Positions 24,263 to 40,260 of a stretch of 57,112 bases of DNA are shown here, piece after piece. The translations under genes and the position numbers were made by a program. The stretch is from a virus. A model generated the notes under the pieces. That model did no database searches, had not been told where the DNA came from, and saw nothing but the letters and a program-made list of their open reading frames with translations. Location: positions 1-57,112 of IMG/VR virus record IMGVR_UViG_3300005519_000204; one strand, 5' to 3'. Within the stretch, counting starts at the first letter, position 1; every line of letters begins with the position of its first letter.

Positions 24263-24662
24263 TCACTTACTGCTTCGGATGCGCTCTATTGCCGGCCGAT
24301 AACCCTGGCTTGCCGCCTTATGCAGCCAGAATTGAGCGCGCCTCCTGTCCTCGGCAGAAAATCCTGCTATCAAGGAATGCATATGCCGTGTACTGGCAGT
24401 TAGCATCACCATTTTCCGCGCCAATAATCGCCCACCTCAACGCCTCATCAAGATTTGTCGTCACGTTCGAATAAAATCTCGAGAGACGTAACGCAGCACG
24501 ACCGGAACCATCCAGCGCTTCATTCGTCAGCGTTATCACTTGTTGCGGAGTTAACACATAGCCCTGCTCTCCGAATTGATATCCCTGACTTTCCGAAGCC
24601 AGAACTGGGAACATGCACGGCGATGTTATTAACGCGAACAATAGGCACCTAACGAAGAACAT
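24263..24662 (-). pseudogene. Secreted Sel1-like repeat protein, frameshifted
   Basis: The frame from ATG 24662 gives 114 residues: a signal peptide ('FFVRCLLFALITSPCMFPVL'), then 'GRAALRLSRFYSNVTTNLDE' and 'ALRWAIIGAENGDANCQY', a Sel1/TPR-like helix pair, stopping at 24318-24320. Skipping one base near 24340 restores 'ARAQFWLHKAASQGYRPAIE', the expected next Sel1 helix, with a stop at 24263-24265. This indicates a single-base frameshift (or sequence error) near the C-terminus. It is the last of the genes downstream of RHS and may be an accessory or immunity-type protein of that locus. Confidence 0.6.
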
Positions 24663-24669
24663 GTTTGAT

Positions 24670-25209
24670 TCACTCGTGAGTCAACCCTAAGGGAATCACC
24701 GCGACGTTCGACTTCAACTTACCTCCCAACATATTGCCTCCGGCAAGGGCGAAGCAGAGCGATCCCTGATCGGCATTCGCAGCCAACCTTTCCACGTATG
24801 CTTGGTACGCAAACGGAGGCCCTTTGGCCATCGCTGCCGCGTATTCAGGGGGCGCTTTCGTGCTGTCATTGATCAGCAGCTTGCCCCAATAAATCTTACC
24901 GTAGTGTCGAATGCTGTCCTGCACTCCGGCTTTGGTACATGGTCCAACCGCGAAGGTCACGTTGTAGTCCTTCGATGCAGACAGCGCTAGTAGGTCCGTG
25001 CTGGTTGTGAAATCGATACGGGAAATGATTTTTGACGGATGTGGGGGATGATCCACAAAGTCGATTTGCGTCTGGCCTTTGTAGTCCACATCGCTCACCG
25101 ACGTCACTCGAATATCTCTCGGACTGCCGCCGAATGGTAAAGAGCACGCGGTGAGCGAGACCAAGCATATGGCAATAACGGCTGTTGACAATCGGCTATG
25201 CGAAGCCAT
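24670..25209 (-). CDS. Lipoprotein of the RHS cargo block, unknown
   Basis: A 179-residue lipoprotein with AGGAGG nine bases before ATG 25209. The signal peptide ends in the lipobox 'LTAC' (about Cys22), so it is anchored in a membrane facing the periplasm. The mature part is a soluble domain without recognised motif ('GQTQIDFVDHPPHPSKIISR', 'CTKAGVQDSIRHYGKIYWGK'). Two Cys could form a disulfide. It is followed 7 bases later by the Sel1-like gene. Because toxin tips of secreted RHS proteins act outside or on neighbours, a periplasmic immunity lipoprotein is plausible, but this is only inference. Confidence 0.7.
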   Translation of the reverse strand: MASHSRLSTAVIAICLVSLTACSLPFGGSPRDIRVTSVSDVDYKGQTQIDFVDHPPHPSKIISRIDFTTSTDLLALSASKDYNVTFAVGPCTKAGVQDSIRHYGKIYWGKLLINDSTKAPPEYAAAMAKGPPFAYQAYVERLAANADQGSLCFALAGGNMLGGKLKSNVAVIPLGLTHE

Positions 25210-25429
25210 AGTCAATTGCCTCCTCGCCCAGAGATAAAAGGTGAAGTCACCGTGAGCTGACCAGCGAGGACTTGTTCTCGACTACTTATGCCGGGACCGG
25301 GGGCACTCATCAGACTCCTAAGAATGGTGGAGCTCTATCCATGCAGAAGCACCAACAACAACCCAATGCAAGACAGGTCCACCATGTCGCAAATACTAGA
25401 AGTAGTTGAACGCTGAACCGAGGCAACAG

Positions 25430-25813
25430 CTAGGAAAACATTTTGTAAAAAACTCTGTTTCCCCAGTCGTCTTCGTACGCCGCAAGGATCTTTTCCAGGG
25501 GCCTGCCATCGACCCTCGGTCGGTCTAGCTTATGCAATTCCTTTTCCACCCAAACCCGAAATTCCGGCCAGCGCAATTTATGAACTAGAACGGCAACGGG
25601 CTCATCACTTATCGATTTTGAAGAAAACAGTGATCCGATAAGAGCAACAATGTCAGATCGGCTTATGGCTTGCCTGCCAATAATTTCCAAGCAACGATCA
25701 TAATGTGGTTCCGCAAGATCGAAGGAATATTCCGTATCCAAGACTTCTTCGGCAGCAAGCAACTCCGACTTAAGTTCCATGAGATCTGCATCACTGCTAT
25801 GGCTACCGCTCAT
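25430..25813 (-). CDS. Small acidic cytosolic protein downstream of RHS, candidate immunity
   Basis: A 127-residue protein. The start 'MSGSHSSDADLMELKSELLA' is chosen because GGAG stands 7 bases upstream; the frame is open to 25984 but would then overlap the previous gene by over 120 bases. It appears all-helical ('DRCLEIIGRQAISRSDIVAL', 'KLRWPEFRVWVEKELHKLD') with no signal peptide. Position directly after the RHS gene pair, low GC, acidity and size are those of polymorphic-toxin immunity proteins, though I do not recognise a named family. It ends 'WGNRVFYKMFS'. Confidence 0.62.
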   Translation of the reverse strand: MSGSHSSDADLMELKSELLAAEEVLDTEYSFDLAEPHYDRCLEIIGRQAISRSDIVALIGSLFSSKSISDEPVAVLVHKLRWPEFRVWVEKELHKLDRPRVDGRPLEKILAAYEDDWGNRVFYKMFS

Positions 25814-25859
25814 CACCAGCTCCGATACATGACTAAGCCCAGTGGCCATTTGGCCATCG

Positions 25860-26255
25860 CTATTGAGCTGTAAACTCGACAGACCCTCCTGATCCCGGAG
25901 TAAGACCAACCGCCAAGTAATGAACATCTCGCTCCAGCGGCTTTGCCTTCGTTGTCTCCGCGAATCCAACAGGTACTTCGCCATACGTCACATTGGATAG
26001 CGGCTTAGCATTACCAGGAGAAAGCTCAAATGCCCACATGGGATTTTTGTAGTCCCAGTGCCCTGAGTCATCACGCTTTACTACAAGAAAGGTATTAACT
26101 TCCACGCCACCAGCCTTAGGCGCACCACTTCCTTCAAAGTGAAACGAGATCAAGGATGCACCGTCATGTACAACTTTGATGGTGTATCTAGATGACATTC
26201 CACAGAGATTGAATGCAAGTAGGAAAAGAGCAAGTGACATTAAGACGCTTTTCAT
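25860..26255 (-). CDS. Secreted protein coupled to the RHS gene
   Basis: A 131-residue protein starting immediately after the RHS stop (TAA-ATG). Its ribosome binding site (AGGAG) lies inside the last RHS codons, so translation is tightly coupled. A signal peptide (residues about 1-19) precedes a beta-rich mature domain with 'DGASLISFHFEGSGAPKAGG', 'LSNVTYGEVPVGFAET' and 'ERDVHYLAVGLTPGSGG'. Proteins of this look often accompany RHS genes. Being exported, it could be the cognate immunity protein of a periplasm-acting tip, or a chaperone. The family is not identified. Confidence 0.7.
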   Translation of the reverse strand: MKSVLMSLALFLLAFNLCGMSSRYTIKVVHDGASLISFHFEGSGAPKAGGVEVNTFLVVKRDDSGHWDYKNPMWAFELSPGNAKPLSNVTYGEVPVGFAETTKAKPLERDVHYLAVGLTPGSGGSVEFTAQ

Positions 26256-29200
26256 TTATCGATCTCCTATAAACCAGATTGGCGGAGCACCACGATTCAT
26301 GCCAAGACCTACCTGGTTTAGTAGAGATTCATAGTCAGGAAGAGCTGGCGACCATGGCCGCTGCAGGGCAGCATAATAATCCGCAACTATCGCTGCCTGT
26401 TGTTCATATCGATAATCGTTGAAGCAACCGTGTTCGCTCAAGCTATATTTGTATGTGTCACTTCTTGTTCCCTCCATAGCTGCCTTGCGCCAGCTGTAGT
26501 TGGGATTGTTCTGGTACTGATAAACATGAGTCATCTCGTGCGCCAGCCAAGCTTGGTCAGTCAAATTAGCCTTGGAGAAGTCCGATTGGTAGCCCGACGA
26601 AGGAAAATGGATAGTATTTTCAAGAGTGACAGCATTGTCAGTGGCTATAGGCGCCCAGGCACGCGGATCCAAGCCAGCACCCGATACAATGTTCACTTTC
26701 GAGAAATCCACGGTGTTATTGAATACTTGATTGAGCATCGATATTTCTCCGGACGTCGGCGGACGAAGCCCTAGTGGATCGACATAGTCCAGCGGGCTCC
26801 CATTCACATAGTTATATGTGTTGATTCCCCCTTGCAGACCTGCAGGATCGCTCTGAAGGTAACGCCCAGCGGGCGCTTCATAGTAGCGATTCACGTTATA
26901 GATCAATCCTGTTTCCTGGTCGTAGTACTGACCGGGGAAACGCAAATTGAGCACATAGCCACCTACTGACATGGGTGCCACCTCGCCCCATGGATTGCCT
27001 TGGTAAGCCCACTGCCAGATTACTGTACCCGTACTGCTAGCTACCGCACGCGGCGTGCCGAGCCCGTCGGCGTAAACGTAGTTGACAGTGGTCGTCATGG
27101 TTCCGCTCAAACTTGAAGTACCCGTGCCTGGCGAAGGCGCTTTGATTGGGCCACCGTGAATCGGACACGACGAGAAAGACGTGCAAGAAGATGTGCTTGT
27201 GGGATTGCTTGTGGCGCTGACATCGACGGTCGCCACTGGAATGTCGCCCATCCACACATAATCACGCGTGGATGCACCATACTCGCCCACCAAATGCTTG
27301 GCTTCATCGTAGCCGTACCGCACTGTACCGCTTCCAGTTTTGCTAATCCGCTGGCGCAGCGCGTTGTAGGTATAAGTGCCAACAGTGGCCCCCGCGAATT
27401 GGGCAACCGTCAATACATTGCGGCTACTGTAGCCAAACCCGTAGGTGCCACTTGCTTGCGTAATCGCTGTCGTGTTGCCATCGGCGTCCACAGTCCGTGC
27501 CTGATTTCCGATCGCCGTCAGCTGGTGAGTGCCAGAGCCGTACGTGTAGGAGCCGGTATCCAAGTCAGATGCGGCTTTGGTCAAACGATCGCCCGTCTGG
27601 TTGTACGTTACGCTTTCGAGCGTAGAGCCATCGGCCTCAGTTACCGCCGTCAAGCGATATAGCGGATCATAGCTGTAAGTTTCGGTGGCCGGATTAGCCC
27701 CGCTGGCGTTGCCGATCGCCGTGATGTCGCCCATCATATCGCGAGCCAGATGTAACGAAAACGCAGCGCTAGTGATATCCGTCAGGCGGTAGTTGGCATC
27801 GTAGGCGCGTGCAACGGCCTGACCGTTACCCAAGGTGTAGCCACTGACCGGACCGAATGGTTGATAGGTAACGTTACTTACTACCGTGGTGGCCGTCGTG
27901 CTACCCGAGGGTATCACGCTCACCGACTGGATACGTCCATCGGCATCCCTGGTGTAACTCACTTGGGTCCCACTTGGATACACAATGCTGGTTACCCTCC
28001 CAGCAGCGCTAACCGCATAGCCGGTTGTATCCGTTGTCCCATTGATGGTTTGCTGCTTCTCAATGACGTTGCCACGCGCATCGTAGCAATACACCGTGGT
28101 TACGCTGTTCTCAATAATGCGCGTCAGTCGCCCGACTGGATAGCTGCTGCTGCAGCCCGTGACGCTGTTTGCTTCGTCGTAGGCATAGGTAACGTTCTGG
28201 GTGCCATCCGGGTAGCTGGTGCTGATTAGACGATTCAGAACATCGTACGTATTGATAGCCGTGATGCCCTTTGCGTCGGTACTTGTCAGTACATTGCCTG
28301 CGGCATCGAAGGTGCGGCTGGTGGTTCCCGTATCCGGACTAACCTGGCCGGTTGTATCGCTCAGCCCGTCGTAGCTGTAAGTAGTGTTGAGGTTACCAGG
28401 ATCGGTGACTTGAGTGAGCCGATCTAGGCTGTCATAGCCGTATTGAATGGTCGTGTTCTTGGTTGCACCATCGTTGCCGTTGTAGTTGTCGATAGTTTGC
28501 ACTAGACGATTCAAGGCGTCATAGCTCTGTTTGCGCAGAATGCCCAGGCCATCTGCGTCCTGCACGAGATTGCCGTTGGCGTCGTAGTTACCGCTAGCGC
28601 TGGCGTCGAACGTCGTGTGGTTGAGGCCGTCCATGACCTTGGTGAGCTGGCCAAGAGTATTGAAATTGCGACTCAAGCTTTTATGGAGCGTCCCGCTGCT
28701 GTCGTAGGTCTTTTCGGCCGTTTTGTTGCCCGCCGCATCCAGTGTGTATTGCACATAATTGCCCTGTGCATCAGTGATCTTCACCAAGCGATGAGCTGCA
28801 TCGTAACCATACGTCGTGACAACCCCATCAGGATCCGTGACAGTTTGCACGGCCCCATAGGGCGTATAAGTGAAGCTCGTAGTAGCACCCCCTACTATGC
28901 TGGACGCAAGCCAACCGCGCGCCGTATAGGACATATCCGTATTGATCCCATTCGCGTCCGTAGTGCGCGTGACGCGGCCATCGGCGTCATAGGAGGCGAT
29001 GGTCGTAACGTGACCCGCCGCATCGGTAATAGTGTGAATGTCACCGACTTGATAGCAGGCCGCGCCCGGCGTGCCACAGTTCGTCGCGCTACTCGTCAGG
29101 TAATAGGTATACGTGGTCGTTTGCGTAACGTCGGTTCGTGGCCCAGTGATAGTCAGCGTCAATCCGACGAAAGGACACTGCGTGGTGTCGACGACGGTGC

Positions 29201-31529
29201 AGTAGGTATAGGTGGAGCGACGTACTCCGCTCGGCACGCTACCGCTGGTGCTGCACGCATATCTCGAGGCTGCGCTGTTGCCTGGGTCGATATCGCAACG
29301 AGCCAAAACCTGTCCGATGCCATTGTAGATCCATTGCGTGGAACCAACAGTGTTGCCAGACGCGTCCACGATAGTACGTGTCAAAGGTACACGTAGCGTG
29401 GTGTTCCAAGTGAAGTTAGTGGCTCGTTGATTCCGTGTACCGGAAGCCTCGACCTGCTGATCGAGCAAACCATTCGTATCATAGGTGGTGACAGTAACGT
29501 TGCCATTGAAGTCCGTGGCCGAGGCGAGGTAACCATTAGCGTCGTAGGTGCTCGACGCATACGGCTGATCGCATTGCACGCCGCACGGTGCACTCGCGGT
29601 AGCGCGCTGGAAGGAGCCGAATTGCTGGTTGAAGGTCAGTGTTGACTGCGAACCGGTCGGATAGGTCACCGTAGATGTACCATCCGCGTTGTAAGCCACC
29701 TGGGTCTCTGCGATGTTGGATGCCAGCATGGACATCGTAGCCTTGCCTTGAGTGTTGTAGCTGATGCTAGTGAAGCGGATGCTGGTCTCGTCAATGTCGC
29801 CTGTCAGTGCAGCAGGAAGGTTGGCACCACTGGTCAGTGTGCTTTCGTTGTACACATACTGGCGTGATGACTTGTCTGGATACGTGACAGAGGTCAAATT
29901 CCTGTTTCCGTCGTAGCCATAGGTCACCGAACCTCCATCGGGTTCCGAGATGGCGGCCACCGTTGCATTGCTGTTGTAGGTGAAATTCAGCGCCCGGCCT
30001 CGAGGATCGGTCACCGTAAGCAGCAAACCCGCCGCAGGCGCAACGCTACTAGGTGTGGAGCTGGTGCTATACGCCAGTGTGGTGACCAAACCGTCCGTGT
30101 CGGTGATGGAAAGTAGATTTCCATTTTTATCGTAACTTTCCTGGTAACGCGTAGTGGAATCGAAATACGTCCACCCTGTGAGCGCGCCGGAAGTATCTGT
30201 CTGAGGGGTAAGACGATCGGCAACATCGGGATCCGCAACCCACTGGCCTGAGGTCAACGTAAAGTTGAGTTCTCGCCCGTCCGGCCGAAATGCCGTGGCG
30301 ACGGTCAGCCCAATACTTGGTACGTACTCAATGCTCCGATCGAAGGTGTGACGCCAATTTGTACCCATGTGCGCCGGGGCGACAGACGTCTGGCTGTTGT
30401 AATAGCGATGGAAGCTTAAAGCGCCCAGCGAGATGTCTTCGTCATCCTTGTACTCGTTCCCTGTTGCGGAATTGATGGGATCGCCAATGCAGTTGCACGA
30501 CTTGCCAAGCTCCTTTCCGTTTGGATTGCCCGGGACAACTGCCAAATAGCCGATGCTTTCCGCGGTGGTTGAAGTGTGCCCGGGGTCATACGCGCTGAAG
30601 GACGACACGATGGCCCCGGTTTGCATATTGACGCGAAAAACATTACCGCTGTTCGAATCGGCCATCCAAAGGGTATGGTTGTCTGGATCGGGGTAGACGG
30701 AACCGAGTGATGCATAGTACGGACCATCGTTAAATTCATATTGATTAAGAACACCGCCCGAGCTACTCAATAGAAAAACGTAATCCCAGCTAGCCACCAG
30801 CAGATTGTCGTTGGGGAGCTGACGAACATCATATAAAACCTCTGTACCGCCGAAAGGGTCAGAGAGCGATGACACGAAATCGGATAATTGCGTATTGGTG
30901 CAGATGTTGAACTGGTGAATGCTGTCGCCCCCGGTGGTGTAGCGCATCGTGCAGTGATCGTTGGCTAACGCCATGTGGTCGATCGCATCACCCGTACTTG
31001 GGTCGACAGGTATGGAATAACTAGTAAGAAGATTGCCGTTGCCGTCAAACTTTAGAATCGCACCCGGACTGTTGTTCGAGGAAGGGTTTTGTCCGACATA
31101 GACATTGCCGTTGTTATCAAATGCCACCGACGTGGGAAAGGCGTATCCACCGCCAAATAGGCCCATGACACCGCTGTTACTGATGGTATGGATGGCCTCG
31201 TCGTATGTGCCATCAGTCGGAATGTAGAGATTGTTGGATGCATCTACGCTCAGAGATCCAAAATAGGCGTTATTGGTGCCAAAGTTGAAGTTGTCCAGCA
31301 ACACGCCGTTGGGGCTGAAGTGCTTGACGTGATGACCCCAGGTAGAGCCCGCACCTGTGAACGTGGTGACAAAAACTTCTCCGGGCCGGAGAGGGACTCC
31401 GTCTGCGAACGCAGGTTGGAGGCACAAGCTAACTGCTAGCGCCGCAAGCAGGCGTGCGATTGAAAAGCTGTATTTATGCGGGCGGTACGTACTAGAAGTA
31501 TTTACCTGCTTCCAAACAAAACCATTCAT
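26256..31529 (-). CDS. Secreted RHS/YD-repeat polymorphic toxin with HExxH metallopeptidase-like tip
   Basis: A 1,757-residue protein. The start at 31529 is preferred over 31541 because GGAG lies 6 bases upstream. A basic N-terminus and hydrophobic segment ending 'CLQPAFADG' form a Sec-type signal. Residues about 45-340 contain NHL-like propeller repeats ('SLSVDASNNLYIPTDG', 'TSVAFDNNGNVYVGQN'). The RHS entry motif 'CIGDPINSATGNEYKDDEDI' and dozens of YD repeats follow, closing with 'LIYNVNRYYEAPAGRYLQSD' and 'DPLGL' near 1583. The remaining 170 residues are the variable tip: 'HEMTHVYQY' (H1664-E-x-x-H1668) and 'YRYEQQAAIVADYY' suggest a zincin. It differs from the phage genes in GC and lies between D and cI as cargo. 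Confidence 0.85.
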   Translation of the reverse strand: MNGFVWKQVNTSSTYRPHKYSFSIARLLAALAVSLCLQPAFADGVPLRPGEVFVTTFTGAGSTWGHHVKHFSPNGVLLDNFNFGTNNAYFGSLSVDASNNLYIPTDGTYDEAIHTISNSGVMGLFGGGYAFPTSVAFDNNGNVYVGQNPSSNNSPGAILKFDGNGNLLTSYSIPVDPSTGDAIDHMALANDHCTMRYTTGGDSIHQFNICTNTQLSDFVSSLSDPFGGTEVLYDVRQLPNDNLLVASWDYVFLLSSSGGVLNQYEFNDGPYYASLGSVYPDPDNHTLWMADSNSGNVFRVNMQTGAIVSSFSAYDPGHTSTTAESIGYLAVVPGNPNGKELGKSCNCIGDPINSATGNEYKDDEDISLGALSFHRYYNSQTSVAPAHMGTNWRHTFDRSIEYVPSIGLTVATAFRPDGRELNFTLTSGQWVADPDVADRLTPQTDTSGALTGWTYFDSTTRYQESYDKNGNLLSITDTDGLVTTLAYSTSSTPSSVAPAAGLLLTVTDPRGRALNFTYNSNATVAAISEPDGGSVTYGYDGNRNLTSVTYPDKSSRQYVYNESTLTSGANLPAALTGDIDETSIRFTSISYNTQGKATMSMLASNIAETQVAYNADGTSTVTYPTGSQSTLTFNQQFGSFQRATASAPCGVQCDQPYASSTYDANGYLASATDFNGNVTVTTYDTNGLLDQQVEASGTRNQRATNFTWNTTLRVPLTRTIVDASGNTVGSTQWIYNGIGQVLARCDIDPGNSAASRYACSTSGSVPSGVRRSTYTYCTVVDTTQCPFVGLTLTITGPRTDVTQTTTYTYYLTSSATNCGTPGAACYQVGDIHTITDAAGHVTTIASYDADGRVTRTTDANGINTDMSYTARGWLASSIVGGATTSFTYTPYGAVQTVTDPDGVVTTYGYDAAHRLVKITDAQGNYVQYTLDAAGNKTAEKTYDSSGTLHKSLSRNFNTLGQLTKVMDGLNHTTFDASASGNYDANGNLVQDADGLGILRKQSYDALNRLVQTIDNYNGNDGATKNTTIQYGYDSLDRLTQVTDPGNLNTTYSYDGLSDTTGQVSPDTGTTSRTFDAAGNVLTSTDAKGITAINTYDVLNRLISTSYPDGTQNVTYAYDEANSVTGCSSSYPVGRLTRIIENSVTTVYCYDARGNVIEKQQTINGTTDTTGYAVSAAGRVTSIVYPSGTQVSYTRDADGRIQSVSVIPSGSTTATTVVSNVTYQPFGPVSGYTLGNGQAVARAYDANYRLTDITSAAFSLHLARDMMGDITAIGNASGANPATETYSYDPLYRLTAVTEADGSTLESVTYNQTGDRLTKAASDLDTGSYTYGSGTHQLTAIGNQARTVDADGNTTAITQASGTYGFGYSSRNVLTVAQFAGATVGTYTYNALRQRISKTGSGTVRYGYDEAKHLVGEYGASTRDYVWMGDIPVATVDVSATSNPTSTSSCTSFSSCPIHGGPIKAPSPGTGTSSLSGTMTTTVNYVYADGLGTPRAVASSTGTVIWQWAYQGNPWGEVAPMSVGGYVLNLRFPGQYYDQETGLIYNVNRYYEAPAGRYLQSDPAGLQGGINTYNYVNGSPLDYVDPLGLRPPTSGEISMLNQVFNNTVDFSKVNIVSGAGLDPRAWAPIATDNAVTLENTIHFPSSGYQSDFSKANLTDQAWLAHEMTHVYQYQNNPNYSWRKAAMEGTRSDTYKYSLSEHGCFNDYRYEQQAAIVADYYAALQRPWSPALPDYESLLNQVGLGMNRGAPPIWFIGDR

Positions 31530-32069
31530 AGCTCGCTCCATGGGCTGAGGTAGTAGTGGACCGCTCGACTACAGTGGTTTATCCAAACAAACAGAACTTG
31601 ATAGGCGTACTACGCGGACTGCACAGGCGGCGTGCCGGATCGGCATAAATGCGCAGGCCGTGAGGTCTCACCAACTTCAGATGGAAACGAAGGCGCACGC
31701 GCAAAGCGTCGACACGAAGCGCCGCATCACCGTCGGATATCCCCTGTTTTAAGACGAGCACGTGCTGAACATGCACCCGTACAACCTGCATGTACTGCTT
31801 ATGCGTGAGCGTTGCTCGTGCACAGCAATTTCGCCAAATAGGGTGCGCAGCAGTTCGTGACGATTTCGTGATAATGCGAATGCTCTGCTCGTAGGCAGGT
31901 TCTCTTTTTCACGTCGGCGTTTTCTTACACGCCCTTCCGATGCTGCGTCATAGCTGCATGGGCTGATCACGACAGCTTTCGTAAAATCTTATCTGGGAGC
32001 AGGCCTGGGGCAGATAGCCATAATCAAAAGGCGCTGGCCTTGCAGCTCAATCGGTGCCGCGCCGCGAGC
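31530..32069. other. Intergenic region upstream of the RHS gene
   Basis: About 540 bases between the RHS start and the CI repressor stop. Short open frames on both strands lack ribosome binding sites and homology. No strong hairpin-T terminator or clear -35/-10 pair is obvious. It presumably holds the RHS promoter and the junction between phage core and cargo. Confidence 0.4.
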
Positions 32070-32489
32070 TCAATTCGATGTCACAGGTGTCAAAGTCGTC
32101 AACCATTCGCCGTACTCCGGTATAGCCCGTTTGAACTGCTGCTCCAGCCAGATCATCTCATCCTGTGAACGGCTGACGTGCCACCAATACACGAATTGCG
32201 AGAGACGGTCGGCGGCCGGGCTCCCGGCACGCGGGGTTTCTGTGGGGGCGGGATCGTGTGGTGCTTGCGTCCTTCTCCCTAGCCACATGTCGCCGATCCC
32301 AAAAATCAGCCAATCGAGCGAAACCCCTTTTTCCATGGCGATGCCCGCACAAATCCCAAACGGCGGGCTATTGCGCTGACGCCAGTTGCTCGGTGCACTG
32401 ACGGCCAGATTCAAGGCTGCGGCCAGCGCCGAATCGTTCTTGGCCCCGTAGACCTGGCGCATGCGCTGGATGATGTCGTTGACATCCAT
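32070..32489 (-). CDS. cI: CI-type phage repressor
   Basis: A 139-residue regulator of the phage CI repressor family (as in 186/P2-related phages). The start 'MDVNDIIQRMRQVYGAKNDS' is chosen because GGGGAG lies upstream; the frame is open to 32603. The helix-turn-helix 'DSALAAALNLAVSAPSNWRQ' is followed by 'GVSLDWLIFGIG', a hallmark of the family. The C-terminal part is short ('DRLSQFVYWWHVSRSQDEMI') and lacks the LexA-type Ser/Lys protease of lambda CI, so induction probably needs an antirepressor rather than self-cleavage. It is transcribed divergently from the RHH gene over paired operators. Confidence 0.82.
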   Translation of the reverse strand: MDVNDIIQRMRQVYGAKNDSALAAALNLAVSAPSNWRQRNSPPFGICAGIAMEKGVSLDWLIFGIGDMWLGRRTQAPHDPAPTETPRAGSPAADRLSQFVYWWHVSRSQDEMIWLEQQFKRAIPEYGEWLTTLTPVTSN

Positions 32490-32503
32490 GAGTCGCTCCC
32501 CGA

Positions 32504-32554
32504 CACAAAATGTGGAATCCCCGACCGCAATTACTTGCGTTTTCACATTTTGTG
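32504..32554. promoter_or_regulatory. Paired operators in the cI/RHH divergent promoter region
   Basis: CACAAAATGTG (32504-32514) and its exact reverse complement CACATTTTGTG (32544-32554) are separated by 40 bp start to start, about four helical turns. They lie in the 112-bp gap between cI and the divergent RHH gene. A looser TTGTG half-site follows at about 32570. These are the likely binding sites of CI and/or the RHH protein that set the lysis-lysogeny switch. Confidence 0.6.
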
Positions 32555-32601
32555 CAATATCGTTCGAATTGTGTAACGGATCGGCATCGTACCCCATCGC
32601 C

Positions 32602-32826
32602 ATGAAGAACTCTCCTGGTTACCGCCCGCGGATGTATGCGCCGCGTGGCACGACAAAACGAAAGCGCATTCCGATCGGTCTCGATCCCGAACACCTGGCG
32701 CGCTGCAAGGTGCTGGATGCCGCCGAGAACCAGACCGACGCGGCCTACGTCCTTCAGGTGTATCTCGAAGGCCAGGCGCATCGCCATCAATGCAGGACCG
32801 CCCTCGGTGGTCTTGACGCTAGGTAA
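32602..32826 (+). CDS. Small ribbon-helix-helix-like regulator (Cox/Apl position)
   Basis: A 74-residue basic protein ('MKNSPGYRPRMYAPRGTTKR'). 'KRIPIGLDPEHLARCKVLDA' has the strand-helix pattern of ribbon-helix-helix DNA-binding proteins, followed by a second helix ('TDAAYVLQVYLEG'). It is the first rightward early gene opposite cI, where P2-like phages encode Cox or Apl. It probably acts as the lytic-side repressor of cI and perhaps as a recombination directionality factor. Confidence 0.62.
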   Translation: MKNSPGYRPRMYAPRGTTKRKRIPIGLDPEHLARCKVLDAAENQTDAAYVLQVYLEGQAHRHQCRTALGGLDAR

Positions 32827-32858: not shown

Positions 32859-33188
32859 ATGACAGCCCCGCGCAACACCATCGCCTGCCCGCACTGCCAC
32901 GCGCGCATGCGCACGATCACCTCCCGGCAACTGAGCACCCTGGTGCGTGAAATCTACTTCGACTGCATGAATGTCGATTGCAGTCACCGCTGCGTGGCGC
33001 AGCTGGGGATCGTTCGCACCCTGGTGCCGAGCTTGATCCCGGATGCCCTAGTGTCCTTGCCTATCGTGGCGCGCCGCGCCAACGACATCGTCGTGGCACC
33101 GGCGACGCAGCCAACCACCGACCCAACCCCTGCGCCACCGTGTTCCGGTGCGGCAGGTTCCCACTACGCACCGATGGCGCTCAACTGA
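32859..33188 (+). CDS. ogr: Ogr/Delta-type zinc-finger late transcription activator
   Basis: A 109-residue protein with the Ogr/Delta zinc-binding pattern C10-x2-C13 ... C36-x4-C41 ('CPHCHARM', 'FDCMNVDCSHRC'), which in P2, P4 and 186 activators contacts DNA and the RNA polymerase alpha subunit. The N-terminal 75 residues are the activator domain; the C-terminal tail is Pro/Thr/Ala-rich and probably disordered. It lies in the early operon rather than next to D. Its likely targets are the two GTTCT-N14-AGAAC dyads. Confidence 0.85.
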   Translation: MTAPRNTIACPHCHARMRTITSRQLSTLVREIYFDCMNVDCSHRCVAQLGIVRTLVPSLIPDALVSLPIVARRANDIVVAPATQPTTDPTPAPPCSGAAGSHYAPMALN

Positions 33189-33202: not shown

Positions 33203-33592
33203 ATGGCGTTCTCTCACGCGCACGACCACACCCACACGGGGATGCTGATCCACAGCGCCACGCGCTTCATCGTCGCGCACCAGGCCGAGCATCTGGACAG
33301 CGAACAGCTCATCAAACGGTGCTGCGCGCACCTGATGGTCACCGCCGGCATCACCGAAAGAGCCGCGCAGCACTACGCCATGCATGCCCTGGCCGAGCTG
33401 CAAGCCAAACACGTTCCCGCCTACTTCGACATCAGCCGCAGCACCTCCTACGTGGTGCGGGTGGTCGATCCGACCACCGGGCACGCGTATGCCTTGACGG
33501 CGAGCGACGTGTTGCAGGTGGTCAGGATGCAGCACGAACCCGGCCACGACGCGGCTCGCATCACCCAGCAATGCGGACGGCGTGCCGGCTGA
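33203..33592 (+). CDS. Hypothetical early phage protein
   Basis: A 129-residue protein starting at ATG 33203 ('MAFSHAHDHTHTGMLIHSAT'), with GGGG upstream. It begins with a His-rich stretch and continues as helices ('EQLIKRCCAHLMVTAGITER', 'AQHYAMHALAELQA') and a beta region ('RSTSYVVRVVDPTTGHAYAL'). I recognise no domain. It sits between ogr and the antisense-RNA immunity element in the early operon. Confidence 0.65.
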   Translation: MAFSHAHDHTHTGMLIHSATRFIVAHQAEHLDSEQLIKRCCAHLMVTAGITERAAQHYAMHALAELQAKHVPAYFDISRSTSYVVRVVDPTTGHAYALTASDVLQVVRMQHEPGHDAARITQQCGRRAG

Positions 33593-33764
33593 TCTAGCCG
33601 CAACGTCCTAACCCCTTTCCCCTTTCTTTTTCCTTCGCCGGCGGCCGGGTGCAGCCGGCACGGACACGGCTTGCCTGATGATGACGACACCACCCGAACA
33701 AGCGTTGACACCTCGCCTCCCACGGAGGGATGCTTCGGCCGTCGCCGCCCAATCGGTGACCGGG

Positions 33765-33788
33765 TTTAGCAGCCCGAACGGATACAGG
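33765..33788 (+). promoter_or_regulatory. seqA-like antisense target, upstream
   Basis: TTTAGCAG ... GATACAGG is a direct repeat of the downstream target at 33954-33993. It is complementary to two exposed segments of the intervening structured RNA (GATACAGG pairs with 33911-33918; TTAGCAG pairs with 33925-33931). Confidence 0.55.
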
Positions 33789-33874
33789 CGCACACGCGCC
33801 CATCGGCTGATGTCGGCGCTTTTTTATCGCCCGCAGTCGGCGCACGCTTGCGCGCAGCGCGGTTCGCTTTATGG

Positions 33875-33944
33875 CGGGCGGCGCGGGGAGGCCTTCGGGC
33901 CTGCCGGGTTCCTGTATCTCCGGTCTGCTAACCCCGCGCCGTCC
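33875..33944 (+). ncRNA. P4 CI / C4-like antisense immunity RNA
   Basis: A closing stem CGGGCGGCGCGGGG (33875-33888) / CCCCGCGCCGTCCG (33932-33945) has one mismatch. Inside are an AGGC-CUUCGG-GCCU tetraloop hairpin (33889-33902) and a hairpin CCGG...CCGG whose loop shows GGTTCCTGTATC (33907-33918). An unpaired TCTGCTAA (33924-33931) follows. The first is a perfect 12-base complement of 33982-33993, the second of TTAGCAG at 33955-33961. P4 CI and P1/P7 C4 RNAs work this way: they pair with flanking seqA/seqC on nascent leader RNA and force early termination. Confidence 0.6.
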
Positions 33945-33953
33945 GTCACCCTG

Positions 33954-33993
33954 TTTAGCAGCGGGGTGACGGGCTCAACCCGATACAGGAACC
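33954..33993 (+). promoter_or_regulatory. seqC-like antisense target, downstream
   Basis: TTTAGCAG (33954-33961) and GATACAGGAACC (33982-33993) are complementary to the two displayed segments of the upstream structured RNA. The second ends 5 bases before the ATG at 33999, so pairing would also cover its ribosome binding site. Confidence 0.55.
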
Positions 33994-33998
33994 GCCCA

Positions 33999-34262
33999 AT
34001 GTCTGCACCCTACCGTGCCGCATGCGCTTGCCTGCGCGTCACACCTGCCCCGCACGGGCCGCGCCTCGAAGCCGTCTTCGCCGATCTACACGCCGCCACC
34101 GGAGCGCTGCTCGCCGCCGCGGCCGGCCTGTCCGCCGCCCTTGCGCACGGCATGATCGATCACGGCGACGTATACGAACTGCTCCGCACCGTGCATGCAC
34201 GCCTGAGCCAGGCCGCCACCGCCGCCGAGCGCGTCGCCCTGCGACAGGAGCGCGCGGCATGA
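33999..34262 (+). CDS. Small early protein behind the antisense target
   Basis: An 87-residue protein, 'MSAPYRAACACLRVTPAPHG'. The frame is open from 33678 through the antisense RNA region, but homology-free sequence and the RNA structure there favour ATG 33999. It is helical and Ala-rich ('EAVFADLHAATGALLAAAAG', 'ARLSQAATAAERVALRQE'). The start lies in the seqC target, so translation is probably controlled by the antisense RNA. It overlaps the next gene (ATGA). The function is unknown. Confidence 0.6.
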   Translation: MSAPYRAACACLRVTPAPHGPRLEAVFADLHAATGALLAAAAGLSAALAHGMIDHGDVYELLRTVHARLSQAATAAERVALRQERAA

Positions 34263-34534
34263 CGCCCGCCGAACGCTCGTGCCTCACCTGTGTCTTCCAC
34301 ACCCAGCCGGCGGAACTGGGCGGTGACATCCACCTGTGCCGGCTGCCGCCGGATTGCGCACCGCCCGCGGCGTGCGACGAGGACGATCACGGGGACGGCG
34401 ACGCCGCCGACCGCACCTACCTGGGCACCGGTTGTGACGTGATGCGCCGCATGGGCGCGGCCTGCGGGCCGCATGCGGCCTTCTGGCTGGCAGCCCCGCA
34501 CGTCGATGCAGTGCCCGGCGAGGACGGCGCATGA
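34259..34534 (+). CDS. Small Cys-rich early protein upstream of the primase
   Basis: A 91-residue protein with 'CLTCVFHTQPA' near the N-terminus and further Cys ('LCRLPPDCAPPAACDE', 'GTGCDVMRR', 'AACGPHAAF'), a pattern suited to zinc binding. It is acidic in the middle. It overlaps neighbours by 4 bases on both sides, so it is translated with the primase and may be a replication accessory factor. The family is not recognised. Confidence 0.65.
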   Translation: MTPAERSCLTCVFHTQPAELGGDIHLCRLPPDCAPPAACDEDDHGDGDAADRTYLGTGCDVMRRMGAACGPHAAFWLAAPHVDAVPGEDGA

Positions 34535-37245
34535 GTGCACCGCGCTACGCCATGAGCACTGAGCTGCTCGCCGATATCACGCGCGAGCTGATTCACCAAT
34601 TCGGCTTCAAGGCCAAGAAGGAGTATTTGCGCGGCGGCAAGTGCCCCGATTGCGGCAAGCCGGAGCTGTACGCCAACGCCGGCGCGCCGTGGGTGATTCG
34701 CTGCGGTCGCTTGAAGAACTGCGGTTACGAAGCCTCAGCGAAAGACCTGTTTCCCGATCTCTTCGAGGACTGGTCCGAACGCTACAGCAAGACCGACGAC
34801 CACCCGCACGCCGCGGCCGATGCCTATCTGAAGAATGCGCGCGGCTTCAACCTGGCGCGCGTGCAAGGCACGTACACGCAAGAATGGTTCAAGGACCTGG
34901 ACAGCGGCGCGACCTCGGCCACCGTGCGCTTCGCGCTGCCCGGCGGCGGCTACTGGGAACGCCTGATCGATCGCGCGCACCGCTTCGGCAAGATGAAAGC
35001 GCGCTTTGCACCAGGCAAGCGCTACGCGGGCGAGGTGTGGATATCGCCGACCGTCCCGGCCGAGAAGCTGGCCACCCTCGACACGCTCTGGATCGTGGAA
35101 GGCATCTTCGATGCGGTCGCGCTCGGTCATCACGGCATCGATGCCGTGTCGGCCATGAGCTGCAACAACTACCCGGACGCGTTCCTGGCCAGGTTGCGTG
35201 CGCAGCGCGCAGGCGCCCTGCCGACCCTGGTGTGGGCCTTGGACGGCGACGCCGCCGGTCGTGACTACACGCAGCGCTGGGTCAAGCGCGCCCGCAAGGA
35301 CGGCTGGAAGTGCGAGGCCGCCACGATCCCGCAGACCGCCAAGGCCAAGCAAGACTGGAACGACCTGCATCTGGCCGACAAGCTGACGCCGAACGATATC
35401 GACGAATACCGGTACCAGGGGTCGCTGCTGATCGCGCGCAACCATGCCGACAAGGCCCGGCTGATCTACCGCCGTACCGGCATGGCGACGTTCTTCTACG
35501 ACTTCGCCGATCGCCTGTACTGGTTCGACCTGGACATCCGGGCGCTGGACAAAGCAATGCAGCAGCTGGAGGAGAAAGACCCCGACCAGGACGAGCAGGA
35601 ACGCCGCGACCAGGCGCTGGTGGAAGCCTGCGAGAACGTGGAGATCGCCAACTGCAACCCTCAGCCGCTGTACTACCAGGCCAACACCGTCACCGACGAG
35701 TCCTGGTACTACTACCGCGTCACCTTCCCGCATGGCGGCGGCGCGGTGAAGAACACCTTCGCCGGCAGCAGCCTGGCCAGCGCGAGCGAGTTCAAGAAGC
35801 GCCTCTTGAGCATCGCGCCCGGTGCCGTGTTCACCGGCACCAGCCAGCAGCTCGATCGCATCATCCAGCGCCAATTGTTCAACATCAAAACGGTCGAGAC
35901 GATCGACTTCGTGGGGTACAGCAAGGAGCACAGCGTCTATGTCATGGGCGACATCGCCATCAAGGACGGCGTGGTGCACACGCTCAACGACGAGGACTAC
36001 TTCGAGCTGGGCAAGCTCAACCTCAAGACGCTGAGCCAGTCGCCGCAGCTCTCGATCAACCGCGACCGACGCGAATACCGCGCGGAGTGGCTCGATCTGG
36101 TGTGGCAGTGCTTTGGCGCCAAGGGCCTGGTCGCCCTCGCTTTCTGGTTCGGGAGCGTGTTTGCCGAGCAAATCCGCCAGGCGCAAAAGAGCTACCCCTT
36201 CCTGGAACTGGTGGGCGAGGCCGGCGCCGGCAAGTCCACGCTGATCGAATTCATGTGGAAGCTGTTCGGGCGGCGCGACTACGAAGGCTTTGACCCATCC
36301 AAGTCCACGCATGCGGCTCGCGCGCGCAACTTCGCGCAGGTCTCGAACCTGCCGGTGGTGCTGATCGAGAGCGATCGCGACGACGACGCCAAGAAGCGCT
36401 TTGACTGGGACGAGCTGAAGACCGCCTACAACGGCCGCAGCGTGCGCGCGACGGGCGTGAAGAACTCCGGCAATGAGACGCGCGAGCCGCCCTTCCGCGC
36501 CACGGTGGTGATTTCGCAGAACGCCAAGGTGGAGGCCAGCGAGGCGATCATGCAGCGCATCTGCCATATCACGGTGGATCGCTCGGCGCATACCGCGCAG
36601 ACGCGTGCGGCGGCGCTCAAGCTGGAACAGACGCCGGTGGATGCGGTGAGCCACTTCTTGCTGCTGGCCACCCGCGCGGAAGCCAAGGTGATGGAGACCA
36701 TCCTGGCCAATGCGCCCCAGCACGAGCACGCGCTGTTGGAACATCCGGAGATCAAGACCACACGTATCGCCAAGAACCACGGCCAGTTGCTCGCAGTGTT
36801 CGATGCGCTGTCGCACGTCGTCACGCTTACGGACGAACAAAAGGACGCAGTACTGCGCGAAGTGCGGGGCATGGCCGTCGAGCGCCAGGCCTCCATCAGC
36901 AGCGACCACAAAGTAGTGCAGAACTTCTGGGAGCGCTTCGACTATCTCGATACGTGGAACGGCGCGATGGCGACGCTCAACCACAGCCGCAACCCGCACG
37001 AGATCGCGGTCAACCTCAATCACTTCGAGCAAACCGCGGCGCAGCATCGCCTGGAAGTACCCTCGCTGGCCGATCTCAAAAAGCACTTGCGCTCGTCGCG
37101 CTTGCGCAAATTCGTAGACATGAAGGCCGTCAACAGCGCCATCTGGCTTCACGACAACACCGACCTCACCAAGGGCCGCACCGTCAAATGCTGGGTGTTT
37201 CAGCGCGGCCCGAATGAACAGCTGACTTCATCGGCAAAAAACTAA
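34531..37245 (+). CDS. Toprim primase-helicase, replication protein (P4 alpha-like)
   Basis: A 904-residue replication protein. An N-terminal zinc finger has Cys38, Cys41, Cys58 and Cys64 ('KCPDCGKP', 'IRCGRLKNCGYEA'). A Toprim domain has Glu190 ('LWIVEGIFDAVAL') and Asp238-x-Asp240 ('ALDGDAAGRDYTQRW'). A helicase-type ATPase has Walker A 'GEAGAGKST' at 562-570 and an acidic Walker B-like 'VVLIESDRDD'. This is the toprim-domain type common in P2-like phages of xanthomonads and replaces the P2 A nickase. It probably primes phage DNA synthesis and unwinds the origin. It overlaps the gene upstream by 4 bases. The late 3' part is rich in charged helices. Confidence 0.88.
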   Translation: MSAPRYAMSTELLADITRELIHQFGFKAKKEYLRGGKCPDCGKPELYANAGAPWVIRCGRLKNCGYEASAKDLFPDLFEDWSERYSKTDDHPHAAADAYLKNARGFNLARVQGTYTQEWFKDLDSGATSATVRFALPGGGYWERLIDRAHRFGKMKARFAPGKRYAGEVWISPTVPAEKLATLDTLWIVEGIFDAVALGHHGIDAVSAMSCNNYPDAFLARLRAQRAGALPTLVWALDGDAAGRDYTQRWVKRARKDGWKCEAATIPQTAKAKQDWNDLHLADKLTPNDIDEYRYQGSLLIARNHADKARLIYRRTGMATFFYDFADRLYWFDLDIRALDKAMQQLEEKDPDQDEQERRDQALVEACENVEIANCNPQPLYYQANTVTDESWYYYRVTFPHGGGAVKNTFAGSSLASASEFKKRLLSIAPGAVFTGTSQQLDRIIQRQLFNIKTVETIDFVGYSKEHSVYVMGDIAIKDGVVHTLNDEDYFELGKLNLKTLSQSPQLSINRDRREYRAEWLDLVWQCFGAKGLVALAFWFGSVFAEQIRQAQKSYPFLELVGEAGAGKSTLIEFMWKLFGRRDYEGFDPSKSTHAARARNFAQVSNLPVVLIESDRDDDAKKRFDWDELKTAYNGRSVRATGVKNSGNETREPPFRATVVISQNAKVEASEAIMQRICHITVDRSAHTAQTRAAALKLEQTPVDAVSHFLLLATRAEAKVMETILANAPQHEHALLEHPEIKTTRIAKNHGQLLAVFDALSHVVTLTDEQKDAVLREVRGMAVERQASISSDHKVVQNFWERFDYLDTWNGAMATLNHSRNPHEIAVNLNHFEQTAAQHRLEVPSLADLKKHLRSSRLRKFVDMKAVNSAIWLHDNTDLTKGRTVKCWVFQRGPNEQLTSSAKN

Positions 37246-37272: not shown

Positions 37273-37485
37273 ATGAACAAGAACCATCATATCGTTGATG
37301 CTGAGCTACTTCGTACGCTTTCGGGCAAACGCACGGAAGCCGCAGTGCGTAGATGGGCACGTCGACAGGGTATCGCTCTCAAGGATGGAGCCAATGGTCC
37401 ATGGACGACGATTCAAGCGGTAAACGCTTCGCTGGGAATTGCGGAAGCACGCAATGATGTAGCGTACAGCCCGGACATCCTATGA
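37273..37485 (+). CDS. Excisionase-like small protein (DUF4224 type)
   Basis: A 70-residue protein with AGGGAGAA upstream. 'HHIVDAELLRTLSGKRTEAA' followed by 'RWARRQGIALKDGANG' matches the DUF4224-type domain usually encoded just before phage integrases. It is the likely recombination directionality factor. It overlaps the integrase by 4 bases (ATGA). It is AT-richer than the primase. Confidence 0.75.
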   Translation: MNKNHHIVDAELLRTLSGKRTEAAVRRWARRQGIALKDGANGPWTTIQAVNASLGIAEARNDVAYSPDIL

Positions 37486-38666
37486 CTCGCGGCAGGAAGC
37501 GTAAATACGACCCTACTATTCCACGACATATTGATCAGGCGAAGATCCCTAACGGCGTCTATTGGCACCGTCAACGGCATTTTTGGTACACGATTTATGT
37601 CGACGGCAAGTCCCGGAGCAAAAAAATTGCCGACAAGACAGCACTTCTGTCGGACTTGTTCCGCATCGCTGACGAATTGTCGGGATTGGACGAGCAAATG
37701 CTCGATTACATGCTCGAGCAATTTGAACAGTCCGATAAGTTCAAAGCCTTGAAGGAAGCAACCCGGGATGATTATCGATATTGCCGACGCGTGGTTCAGA
37801 CTTTCCAGACAAAGCTAGGTGTGCCCTTTGCAAAGCTCAATCGCAAGCGCATCACTCGGCCCATAGTGCAAAAGCTCATTGACGAGCTAGCAAAGGGCGA
37901 ACGGGCACGTGACGGTAGTTATCCGAAGCCAACACCATCTAAGGCAAATCACGTCTTGCGCTACCTGTCACGCGCATTCGAGTGGGGAATCAACCGCGGC
38001 TTTAGCAATGAGAATCCGGCATCGGGGGTAGAAGCCGCCACCGAACGAGCGGATCCCCGCATGCCAGAGCTCGTCACCATGCGTGCAGTCATCGCGCTTT
38101 GGCGGCGTCGTGGAACCCTTCCCAGTCGACGTAAAGGGTCGCTGTCGCCCTACTTATGGGCGGTCGCGGAAATTGCTTACCGCTGCCGCATGCGTAACGT
38201 CGAAGTACGTAAGTTGTCGGATGCTGATGCATTGCAGGAGGGCATCTATGTCGATCGCGTAAAGGGGAGTCGCGACAACGTCACCCGCTGGATTCCTGCA
38301 TTACGCGAGGCATGGGACTTTTTAGTGCAAAGGCGGAATGCAATATGGGCGAAAAGGCGAAGACCCGTACCACTTCGCGCTGAAGATCGGCCGTTGATCA
38401 TCGCCGAAGATGGTGCACGTGTTTCGAAGGAAGCACTCAAGAGCGCATGGGCACGCGGCATTGAAATCGCGATGGAAGCCAAACTTATCACAGATGCAGA
38501 GCGCTTCGGTCTACATGGGCTCAAGCACCGCGGAATCACGGATACAGAAGGCACGCCTGACAAGAAGCAGCAAGCTAGTGGTCACGTAGAACGACGCATG
38601 GTCCATCGCTACGACCATGAAGTCCCCCTGGTCGAACCCGCCGGAGAAGTGACTGATATCGGTTAA
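37482..38666 (+). CDS. int: Tyrosine-recombinase integrase
   Basis: A 394-residue integrase. The N-terminal arm-binding part carries 'GVYWHRQRHFWYTIYVDGKS'. A SAM-like core-binding region follows ('SDKFKALKEATRDDYRYCRR'). The catalytic domain has Arg238 ('CRMRNVEVRKL'), 'LHGLKHRGITDT' as box II with Lys where many family members have Arg, 'ASGHVERRMVHRYDH' and nucleophile Tyr377. The HGLK version is common in a subfamily of xanthomonad and pseudomonad phage integrases. It stops 69 bases before the tRNA-Asn-derived core, as expected for a phage using that tRNA as attB. Confidence 0.92.
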   Translation: MTRGRKRKYDPTIPRHIDQAKIPNGVYWHRQRHFWYTIYVDGKSRSKKIADKTALLSDLFRIADELSGLDEQMLDYMLEQFEQSDKFKALKEATRDDYRYCRRVVQTFQTKLGVPFAKLNRKRITRPIVQKLIDELAKGERARDGSYPKPTPSKANHVLRYLSRAFEWGINRGFSNENPASGVEAATERADPRMPELVTMRAVIALWRRRGTLPSRRKGSLSPYLWAVAEIAYRCRMRNVEVRKLSDADALQEGIYVDRVKGSRDNVTRWIPALREAWDFLVQRRNAIWAKRRRPVPLRAEDRPLIIAEDGARVSKEALKSAWARGIEIAMEAKLITDAERFGLHGLKHRGITDTEGTPDKKQQASGHVERRMVHRYDHEVPLVEPAGEVTDIG

Positions 38667-39249: not shown

Positions 39250-39804
39250 TTACCAGCCACGTGGCTTTACCATTTTTAGAACCTTCAACCGGTTTACTGC
39301 TGCAGTCTGCGAGACGCCGCAGCGCTCCATAATGTCCCGGACTGACCCGCAAGCCTTGACGACTTCTTCGGGCATCAGTAGGGACGCTGCAAATTCGTTT
39401 GCTTGCCACTCTGAACATTCATAGGGGGCAATCGTCTGCGACTGGTGCGTCTCTCGAAAAAAGGGCACCCCCTGATGGAGAAGGAGATGCCCCAACTCGT
39501 GGCTAACCGTAAATCGTGCGCGGCCGTCATTTGCCGCAGCCCTCTCGTAGACGGACCGCGGCAATTTCATATGCAGCTTGTCTGGCCAGGTTGCCCCTTC
39601 CATTCCCGGCATTTCATGGTCGTCGACGATCTCCAGCACGAAGTCGTCCATCACCTGCGGCAACACAAACTCTACGTACTCGACGACCGGGAAGGCGTCG
39701 GGACTGTCACCTGCAATAAGTGAAAAATGATTGCGGAGCAGGTTCGCGTGCGTGCTGATATCAGCACGCCTACGACCTGGCACGCGCCGGCGAAAGCCTG
39801 TCAT
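39250..39804 (-). CDS. ImmA/IrrE-family metallopeptidase
   Basis: A 184-residue protein with the zinc-protease motif 'SHELGHLLLH' (His102, Glu103, His106) and the family element 'EWQANEFAASLLMPEEVVKA'. The C-terminus has a helix-turn-helix-like 'VRDIMERCGVSQTAAVNRLK'. ImmA-type peptidases cleave partner repressors after DNA damage or other signals. It overlaps the XRE gene upstream by 4 bases, so they form one unit. The stop codon lies in the loop of a 9-bp hairpin (GCCACGTGG / CCACGTGGC) that is not followed by a T-run. Confidence 0.85.
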   Translation of the reverse strand: MTGFRRRVPGRRRADISTHANLLRNHFSLIAGDSPDAFPVVEYVEFVLPQVMDDFVLEIVDDHEMPGMEGATWPDKLHMKLPRSVYERAAANDGRARFTVSHELGHLLLHQGVPFFRETHQSQTIAPYECSEWQANEFAASLLMPEEVVKACGSVRDIMERCGVSQTAAVNRLKVLKMVKPRGW

Positions 39805-40190
39805 CGTTTTTGCCCTTTCTGGTTATTTGGCCAAGTTAACGTTTCAAGTAGCTTTGCTGCCTTCTCGCTATCGATCGTGGGAAATGCGCGCGCAAAAGCT
39901 ACCGCCAATTCTCGTGATCTATCGCTGGTGCCCTCCGTTAAGTCGATTCGAACAGCTGTAGTCGATAGCGCGGCCAAATTTCGTAACCGCGCCTCTGCTG
40001 CAGCATCCAAGTTGTAGTGATGAACGATGCCTTGCAAGAAGTCTTCAGGAGGGGAGCGCTTCCCCAGTTCTACTGCACTGATAAATGACGCCGTGCAACG
40101 CAGTGCCCGAGCCAGGTCGGCAATACGCTCCAGCGCGTCAATACGCAGCTTCCTGAGCTCTTTGCCTAATGGAGTGAGAGCGTTACTCAT
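39801..40190 (-). CDS. XRE-family repressor paired with ImmA-like peptidase
   Basis: A 129-residue helix-turn-helix protein starting at 40190 ('MSNALTPLGKELRKLRIDAL') with AAAGGGG upstream. The HTH 'RIADLARALRCTASFISAVE' followed by 'LGKRSPPEDFLQGIVHHYNL' is of the XRE type. With the overlapping ImmA gene it forms an ImmR/ImmA-like switch, or a toxin-antitoxin-like pair. A CACGTG palindrome lies about 55 bp upstream and is a good operator candidate. Confidence 0.8.
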   Translation of the reverse strand: MSNALTPLGKELRKLRIDALERIADLARALRCTASFISAVELGKRSPPEDFLQGIVHHYNLDAAAEARLRNLAALSTTAVRIDLTEGTSDRSRELAVAFARAFPTIDSEKAAKLLETLTWPNNQKGQKR

Positions 40191-40243
40191 GCTTGCCCCT
40201 TTGGGTCTCGAAGTGATTTGCCTAGTGTCCGAATTGTAGGTCG

Positions 40244-40260
40244 CCACCCACGTGGTGGCA
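40244..40260 (-). promoter_or_regulatory. Candidate operator of the XRE/ImmA unit
   Basis: GCCACCCACGTGGTGGC is a near-perfect palindrome around CACGTG. CCACGTGG recurs twice around the ImmA stop (39241-39249, 39256-39265), and a partial copy GCCACGTTG lies at 40301-40309. The rest of 40191-40455 contains no gene and no other signal that I can support. Confidence 0.45.

Follow-up and report, generated by a model that had tools for sequence, protein, structure and literature searches.

A P4-type RNA immunity cassette predicted in front of the primase gene of a P2-like prophage

The window, as we call the whole 57,112-base virus record IMGVR_UViG_3300005519_000204 (one strand), appears to contain a P2-like prophage equipped with a P4-type RNA immunity cassette; we put the probability of this reading, with the mechanism set out below, at roughly 0.8. 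The cassette looks complete, with a promoter, seqA, a terminator and a competing antiterminator, the C4 antisense RNA, and a seqC that lies over the Shine-Dalgarno (SD) sequence of a small gene, orf87. The RNA switch probably shuts off the downstream DNA-copying genes. The argument is built from sequence, namely the RNA family, the co-varying boxes, the terminator/antiterminator, the SD overlap, an open nested frame, and the presence or absence of the cassette in relatives. By sequence, the element joins those already described in phages P1 and P4, and a first-pass annotation had proposed one here. If the prediction is right, a complete satellite-type RNA immunity switch resides inside a P2-like phage that is self-sufficient and encodes a protein repressor as well, and close relatives with and without the cassette offer a natural comparison for what RNA immunity adds. 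The presence or absence of the cassette as a unit and the multicopy C4 loci of Pseudomonas, both of which go beyond the first-pass annotation, carry most of the interest.

Judged by its structural genes, the host element is a P2-like phage (Peduoviridae): the left part of the record holds P2-type genes for the portal, the terminase subunits, the major head protein, the sheath and GPD. The early genes follow rightward in the order CI-type repressor, Ogr-like gene, orf129, cassette, orf87, orf91, primase, excisionase-like gene and integrase (Table 1). A protein repressor (cI) had been claimed to coexist with the RNA, and a CI-type gene was indeed found on the minus strand; it is presumed to form the second immunity layer. 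Two stacked layers, one of protein and one of RNA, are plausible and are known for P1, which is reported to combine the C1 repressor and the C4 RNA (PMC8201110). The operator search near the CI-type repressor gave weak repeats and nothing more, and a generic scan with stricter rules found no promoter upstream of the genes divergent from it. The description of the downstream genes as a P2-like primase operon stood in part: the structural genes mark the phage as P2-like, and its primase is of the family found in the Peduoviridae phages Dobby and Smp131, which also have a similar early-to-integrase order, but P4 alpha is unrelated overall and gave only a weak Toprim-like match (E 0.063, N-terminal 490 alpha residues). 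No C4 was detected at E ≤ 0.001 in the primase flanks of Dobby and Smp131 (best score 18.2 bits, E 0.063, in Smp131). A gene for a 1761-aa RHS/YD-repeat-like protein, judged by translation alone (26256-31541, minus strand), and small neighbours (24318-25984) sit between tail gene D and the repressor. From ~39 kb on, the genes lie on the other strand; a lambda-type tail protein J is encoded among them, as is a tape measure protein, and this region is probably a second prophage. At its edge, a metallo-protease-like protein and a helix-turn-helix protein are encoded in tandem (39250-40247, minus strand), probably a repressor/protease or toxin-antitoxin-like pair.

Table 1. Features of the cassette and of the neighbouring early genes (window coordinates).
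Feature	Position	Strand	Evidence
CI-type protein repressor gene (177 aa)	32070-32603	-	PF07022 Phage_CI_repr, E 2.4e-13; PHROG transcriptional repressors
Ogr/Delta-like zinc-finger gene, first rightward of the repressor	32859-33188	+	PF04606, E 7.4e-18
orf129, early gene directly before the cassette	33203-33592	+	phrog_3461, E 3.3e-18
Eta-like long frame (194 aa) spanning seqA, terminator, C4 and seqC; shares the frame of orf87	33678-34262	+	ORF
Candidate -35 element (TTGACA) of the internal, P4 P_LE-like promoter	33705-33710	+	conserved TTGACA-N18-GATGCT
Candidate -10 element (GATGCT); ends 31 nt before box b'	33729-33734	+	conserved TTGACA-N18-GATGCT
Leader hairpin I (GTCGCCG/CGGTGAC), probable RNA 5' end	33741-33760	+	fold; within c4-a1b1 match
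Leader hairpin II, presents box b' (TTTAGCAG, 33765-33772)	33761-33776	+	fold
seqA box a' (GATACAGG)	33781-33788	+	complement of C4 box a
Antiterminator hairpin (GGCGC/GCGCC), shares two bases with box a'	33787-33800	+	free fold
Intrinsic terminator (GCGCC...GGCGC + TTTTTT), between seqA and C4	33796-33825	+	fold with boxes blocked
C4 antisense RNA; box a 33907-33918, box b 33924-33931	33867-33953	+	RF01695, 89.6 bits; covariation
seqC box b'' (TTTAGCAG)	33954-33961	+	complement of C4 box b
seqC box a'' (GATACAGGAACC), covers Shine-Dalgarno AGGA 33987-33990	33982-33993	+	complement of C4 box a
orf87, small gene at the kil position, comes and goes with the cassette	33999-34262	+	no Pfam match at cut-off
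orf91, early gene, 5' end apparently interrupted by the cassette	34259-34534	+	comparison with cassette-free relatives
DNA primase gene (904 aa), main predicted downstream target	34531-37245	+	phrog_1139, 1171 bits
Excisionase-like gene	37273-37485	+	phrog_1266, E 9.5e-8
Integrase gene	37482-38666	+	phrog_1 integrase, E 1.4e-25

The first-pass annotation had described a structured RNA with a stem (33875-33888 with 33932-33945), a UUCG hairpin and a second hairpin, and had named the Rfam C4 model as a check. The Rfam C4 antisense RNA (RF01695) matched over its full length with an E of 1.7e-16 (cut-off 45 bits; score in Table 1), and this was the sole gathering-level RNA match in the whole window. 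Both hairpins were found, and the long stem is three pairs longer than proposed (33872-33888 paired with 33932-33948). The fold energy is -53.5 kcal/mol, compared with -36.5 ± 3.3 for shuffles. When 21 loci were aligned, the 27-pair structure had 99.1% of its cells paired, 18 of the 27 pairs were altered on both sides, and the covariation score was 0.665 vs 0.210 for shuffled alignments. A covariance model built here from these 21 loci (R1) scored the window C4 at 97.7 bits, with no other match in the window up to E 10. The CI RNA of phage P4 fits the same model at 67 bits, which supports the P4 CI/P1 C4 logic (seqA, antisense RNA, seqC) suggested for this region. That logic held in nearly all of the sequence tests applied here.

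The RNA exposes two boxes, and the claimed complementarity to its flanks (33765-33788 and 33954-33993) was borne out, including the 12-base match in seqC. Box a (GGTTCCTGTATC) is complementary to GATACAGGAACC in seqC over 12 bases and to GATACAGG in seqA over 8 bases. Box b (TCTGCTAA) faces TTTAGCAG on both sides, with 7 perfect pairs, or 8 with wobble. The boxes of each RNA were compared with its own 150 bases upstream and 75 bases downstream, and with those of other loci. The C4 set comprised 138 matches, of which nine were removed by hand (eight duplicates from overlapping loci and one 29-bit match); the remaining 129 were reduced to 112 by dropping identical ones and to 104 by dropping eight with unparseable loops. 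For these 104 distinct loci, the mean longest own match of box a was 6.87 upstream and 7.40 downstream (4.84 and 4.82 when swapped), and that of box b was 7.03 upstream and 6.94 downstream (4.94 and 4.50 when swapped). Since the own matches exceeded the swapped ones in all four tests, and none of 10,000 permutations reached the observed mean in any of them, the complementarity between boxes and targets is beyond chance. The preference for the own target was also seen among the 19 C4 copies of one Pseudomonas genome (0 to 2 of 10,000 permutations). Box a is mostly distinct among ten cassettes; the window shares its box a with locus L013, and L004, L014 and L011 share another. In these last three, a' is perfectly complementary to C4 box a and a'' carries two central mismatches, so the pairing at the ribosome binding site is weaker, which suggests that the seqA and seqC targets are able to drift apart. 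Box a' is weak in many chromosomal C4 copies.

Upstream of C4, the leader contains a conserved candidate promoter. A leader promoter score of at least 8 was obtained for 48 of 99 loci (5 of 99 when shuffled), and a generic scan with stricter rules returned no leader promoter. The c4-a1b1 model (RF03163) matched at 33728-33780 with 46.2 bits (E 1.3e-10), just under its cut-off of 46.7. The interval between seqA and C4 holds the arrangement GGCGC-ACAC-GCGCC-N14-GGCGC-TTTTTT. In the free fold the first and second segments pair; with the seqA boxes blocked, the second pairs with the third and the terminator is predicted to form. A generic terminator scan placed the stem at 33803-33816, with a T run identical to that of the terminator in Table 1. 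Terminator parsing retained 52 of 66 loci, and an antiterminator stem of at least four pairs was found in 45 of these (shuffles of segment 1: mean 15.5, maximum 24), a count that is approximate, the parser having mis-called the hairpin in some rows (e.g., L013, L016, L204 and L266) and the loci being related. The mean pairing of the terminator arm rose from 0.68 to 0.93 when a' was blocked (43 loci), a treatment that trivially breaks any stem overlapping a'. Owing to the parser mis-calls and the relatedness of the loci, the statistics for a terminator/antiterminator switch across loci are only suggestive. The ATG after seqA (33803-33840, MSALFYRP) resembles the orf87 start after seqC (33999-34015, MSAPYRA), as though seqA with the gene start behind it had arisen by an ancient duplication of seqC with its own.

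Replication-gene control had been ascribed to premature termination. The terminator between seqA and C4 agrees with this, but termination would probably account for just one half of the mechanism: since the orf87 SD lies within seqC, a block of translation would be the other. The first ORF starts 38-58 nt after C4 in 91 of 103 loci; 62 of 72 have an SD-like triplet overlapped by a'', and the gap to the start codon has a median of 8 nt. This overlap is also an argument for a P1-type mode alone, in which C4 would cover the orf87 ribosome binding site with polarity downstream, and the seqA terminator would be a mere transcript end rather than a switch. Many chromosomal copies fit that mode in having seqC but having lost the seqA T run, which is kept in 68 of 104 loci. 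However, the window and its phage relatives retain seqA, the T run and the competing antiterminator, and box b' upstream gives matches as strong as the downstream ones, so that we regard the P1-type mode alone as unlikely. With the terminator switch and the SD overlap by a'', both termination at seqA and a translation block at seqC seem to be built into the P4-type cassette.

Followed back from orf87, its frame meets no stop in seqC, C4, the terminator or seqA as far as the ATG at 33678. The frame test covered the 98 of 113 rows that have an ORF starting 38-60 nt after C4. All ten members of the window family had the eta-like frame open across the leader, and each of the other two frames was open in one of the ten, although, the members being related, these are not ten independent events. 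An open eta-like frame as a general trait of C4 loci was rejected: the other 88 rows (P4 included) were open in 14, 14 and 14 cases by frame, and the excess is therefore confined to the window family. The orf87 product gave no Pfam match at cut-off and no BLASTP alignment with P4 Kil, and for want of that similarity we file the cassette as P4-type by its layout and its RNA, not as a kil carrier. A remote relationship of orf87 to DUF3077/DUF6124 was also considered and found no support (probability 1.8% in a profile comparison with unassigned small Pseudomonas proteins).

From these parts we infer how the RNA would be expressed and processed, how termination and immunity would come about, how eta translation would bypass the switch, and what part the protein repressor would play. 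The promoter inside the eta-like frame (33705-33734) would give a leader with seqA and then C4, and RNA that reads through the terminator would be processed to the C4 RNA. Free C4 would pair in trans with the seqA of new transcripts, either from the prophage or from an incoming phage whose specificity matches; this pairing would occupy the start of the antiterminator, the terminator would form, and transcription would end before C4 and the replication genes. Because C4-seqA pairing would stop transcription before C4, the RNA would limit its own synthesis. On longer transcripts, C4 would pair with seqC, the orf87 SD would be covered and its translation blocked, and the untranslated orf87 RNA would be further exposed to termination. 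In lytic growth, an upstream promoter, presumably controlled by the CI-type repressor, would give transcripts on which the eta-like frame is translated from its start at 33678; by moving across seqA, the terminator and C4, the ribosomes would hold the structures open, and the primase, excisionase and integrase genes would be expressed.

This scheme follows that of P4, for which a constitutive promoter within eta is reported, its transcript being terminated via CI and seqA; Kil is a truncated form, and full-length Eta, translated from an upstream promoter, prevents termination (PMC10111431). The same source reports CI and seqA homologues in satellites. The window holds a sequence counterpart of each part of the P4 scheme, the upstream promoter excepted. 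The P4 record (X51522) resembles the window in its R1 match, in its seqA and seqC boxes (box a has an 8-base match in seqA and a 9-base match in seqC), in an intrinsic terminator between seqA and CI, in the position of seqC at the nested gene's SD (kil lies 54 nt after CI), in a long frame open through the RNA, for which the eta starts give 197-199 aa, and in a replication gene downstream. In contrast to P4, the host element here is a complete P2-like phage that encodes a CI-type repressor of its own; orf87 is unlike Kil, and the box specificity differs. The likeness to P1/P7 c4 lies in the full-length RF01695 match, the near-cut-off match to the seqA-target model RF03163, and, for P1, the coexistence of C4 RNA with a protein repressor; c4 acts on icd/ant (P7 record annotation; reported in PMC8201110), unlike the window, where orf87 and the primase operon lie downstream.

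A further relative is the IsrK/STnc1160-orf45-anrP system of Salmonella Gifsy-1 (RF01394), in which IsrK is described as a structural homologue of the P4 seqA RNA that ends at a Rho-independent terminator, with read-through and a second stable RNA (PMC4825925). By analogy, a short seqA leader RNA could act in trans to turn on orf87 translation, and the isrK model does match at 33741-33824 (41.7 bits, E 1e-7). The match falls under the cut-off of 50, however, the Gifsy-1 system is reported to control an antirepressor by activation through the leader RNA, whereas the operon here encodes a primase, and the window has the P4-like nested frame; we consider such activation very improbable. C4 and its target are listed in Rfam and in a 2010 survey (PMC2864571), and C4/isrK pairs are annotated in Xylella (PMC12189769). 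Among openly licensed papers we recognised none on a C4 cassette in a P2-like primase operon or on its presence and absence, and none on multicopy Pseudomonas C4 loci, which is weak evidence of novelty in both cases.

Close primase relatives are ~88-93% identical, and their loci are colinear with the window on both sides, with ~72-79% DNA identity in the left flank and 70-77% in the right. Cassette-free relatives lack everything from ~33,690-33,710 to ~34,250-34,330. A conserved gene-start anchor could be located in 16 of 24 loci; its distance to the primase was 860-878 nt in the five loci with C4 (the window, L004, L011, L013 and L014) and 270-386 nt in the eleven without. In cassette-free loci, the ATG equivalent to 33678 starts a gene whose later part is the orf91 of the window, a correspondence by which the cassette interrupts the start of that early gene and the eta-like frame begins at the old start codon. 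In this sequence comparison, the cassette is present or absent as one unit, at one site, in close relatives. Its absence from 11 of the 16 anchored relatives shows that it is dispensable, and together with the coexisting protein repressor this would suit a decayed relic, inherited in structure and out of use, which we nevertheless find hard to credit given that the boxes co-vary across seqA, C4 and seqC, the nested frame is stop-free in 10 of 10 members and the promoter sequence is retained.

The start of the interrupted gene seemingly occurs at both ends of the cassette (33678-33704 and 34249-34330), like a degenerate direct repeat, most clearly in L013, and L012 and L032, both without C4, have a longer gene start that resembles the left copy.

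A single gain of the cassette fits the primase tree poorly. On a primase tree of 23 rows, nine changes are required, gain and loss counted alike, of which at least seven are forced by well-supported branches, and shuffled labels need as many; L010 was omitted from this tree (internal stop), L042 and L033 form long branches, and L033 was scored as minus despite two C4s downstream of its primase. A primase tree of 15 rows requires six changes (at least four forced). The left-flank tree (13 rows) needs only three, at least one of them forced, so recombination between flank and primase could explain much of the changes on the primase tree.

Beyond these relatives, C4 was detected in 16 of the 50 primase-bearing virus records and in 22 of the 42 genomes scanned. 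Among 99 Pseudomonas genomes, 92 had at least one copy and several had at least 39; a separate genome scan gave 43 and 42 copies in two genomes. The ORFs adjoining the C4 copies examined (Pfam on 11) encode DUF6124, DUF3077, a Rha- or Bro-type antirepressor, or an unassigned small protein. If functional, these multicopy families would be an unusual set of parallel antisense switches beyond phage immunity. A tentative extension, which we think possible but would not favour, is that the cassette is a mobile plug-in: a unit of ~560 bp (promoter to orf87) would have been inserted into, or excised from, the beginning of a single early gene in P2-like phages, with the ATG of the gene kept as the eta-like start, with repeated gain and loss and with changing box specificity. 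In Pseudomonas chromosomes, multiplication of the same C4 unit would have produced dozens of RNA-target pairs, each with its private specificity, that control small genes of the DUF6124/DUF3077 type, an RNA network derived from phage immunity. C4 is also multicopy in Chromobacterium (35) and Ralstonia (16), and in L100, L190, L222 and L033, which come from different organisms, C4 copies stand in tandem within one locus at spacings from a few hundred bases up to 1.3 kb.
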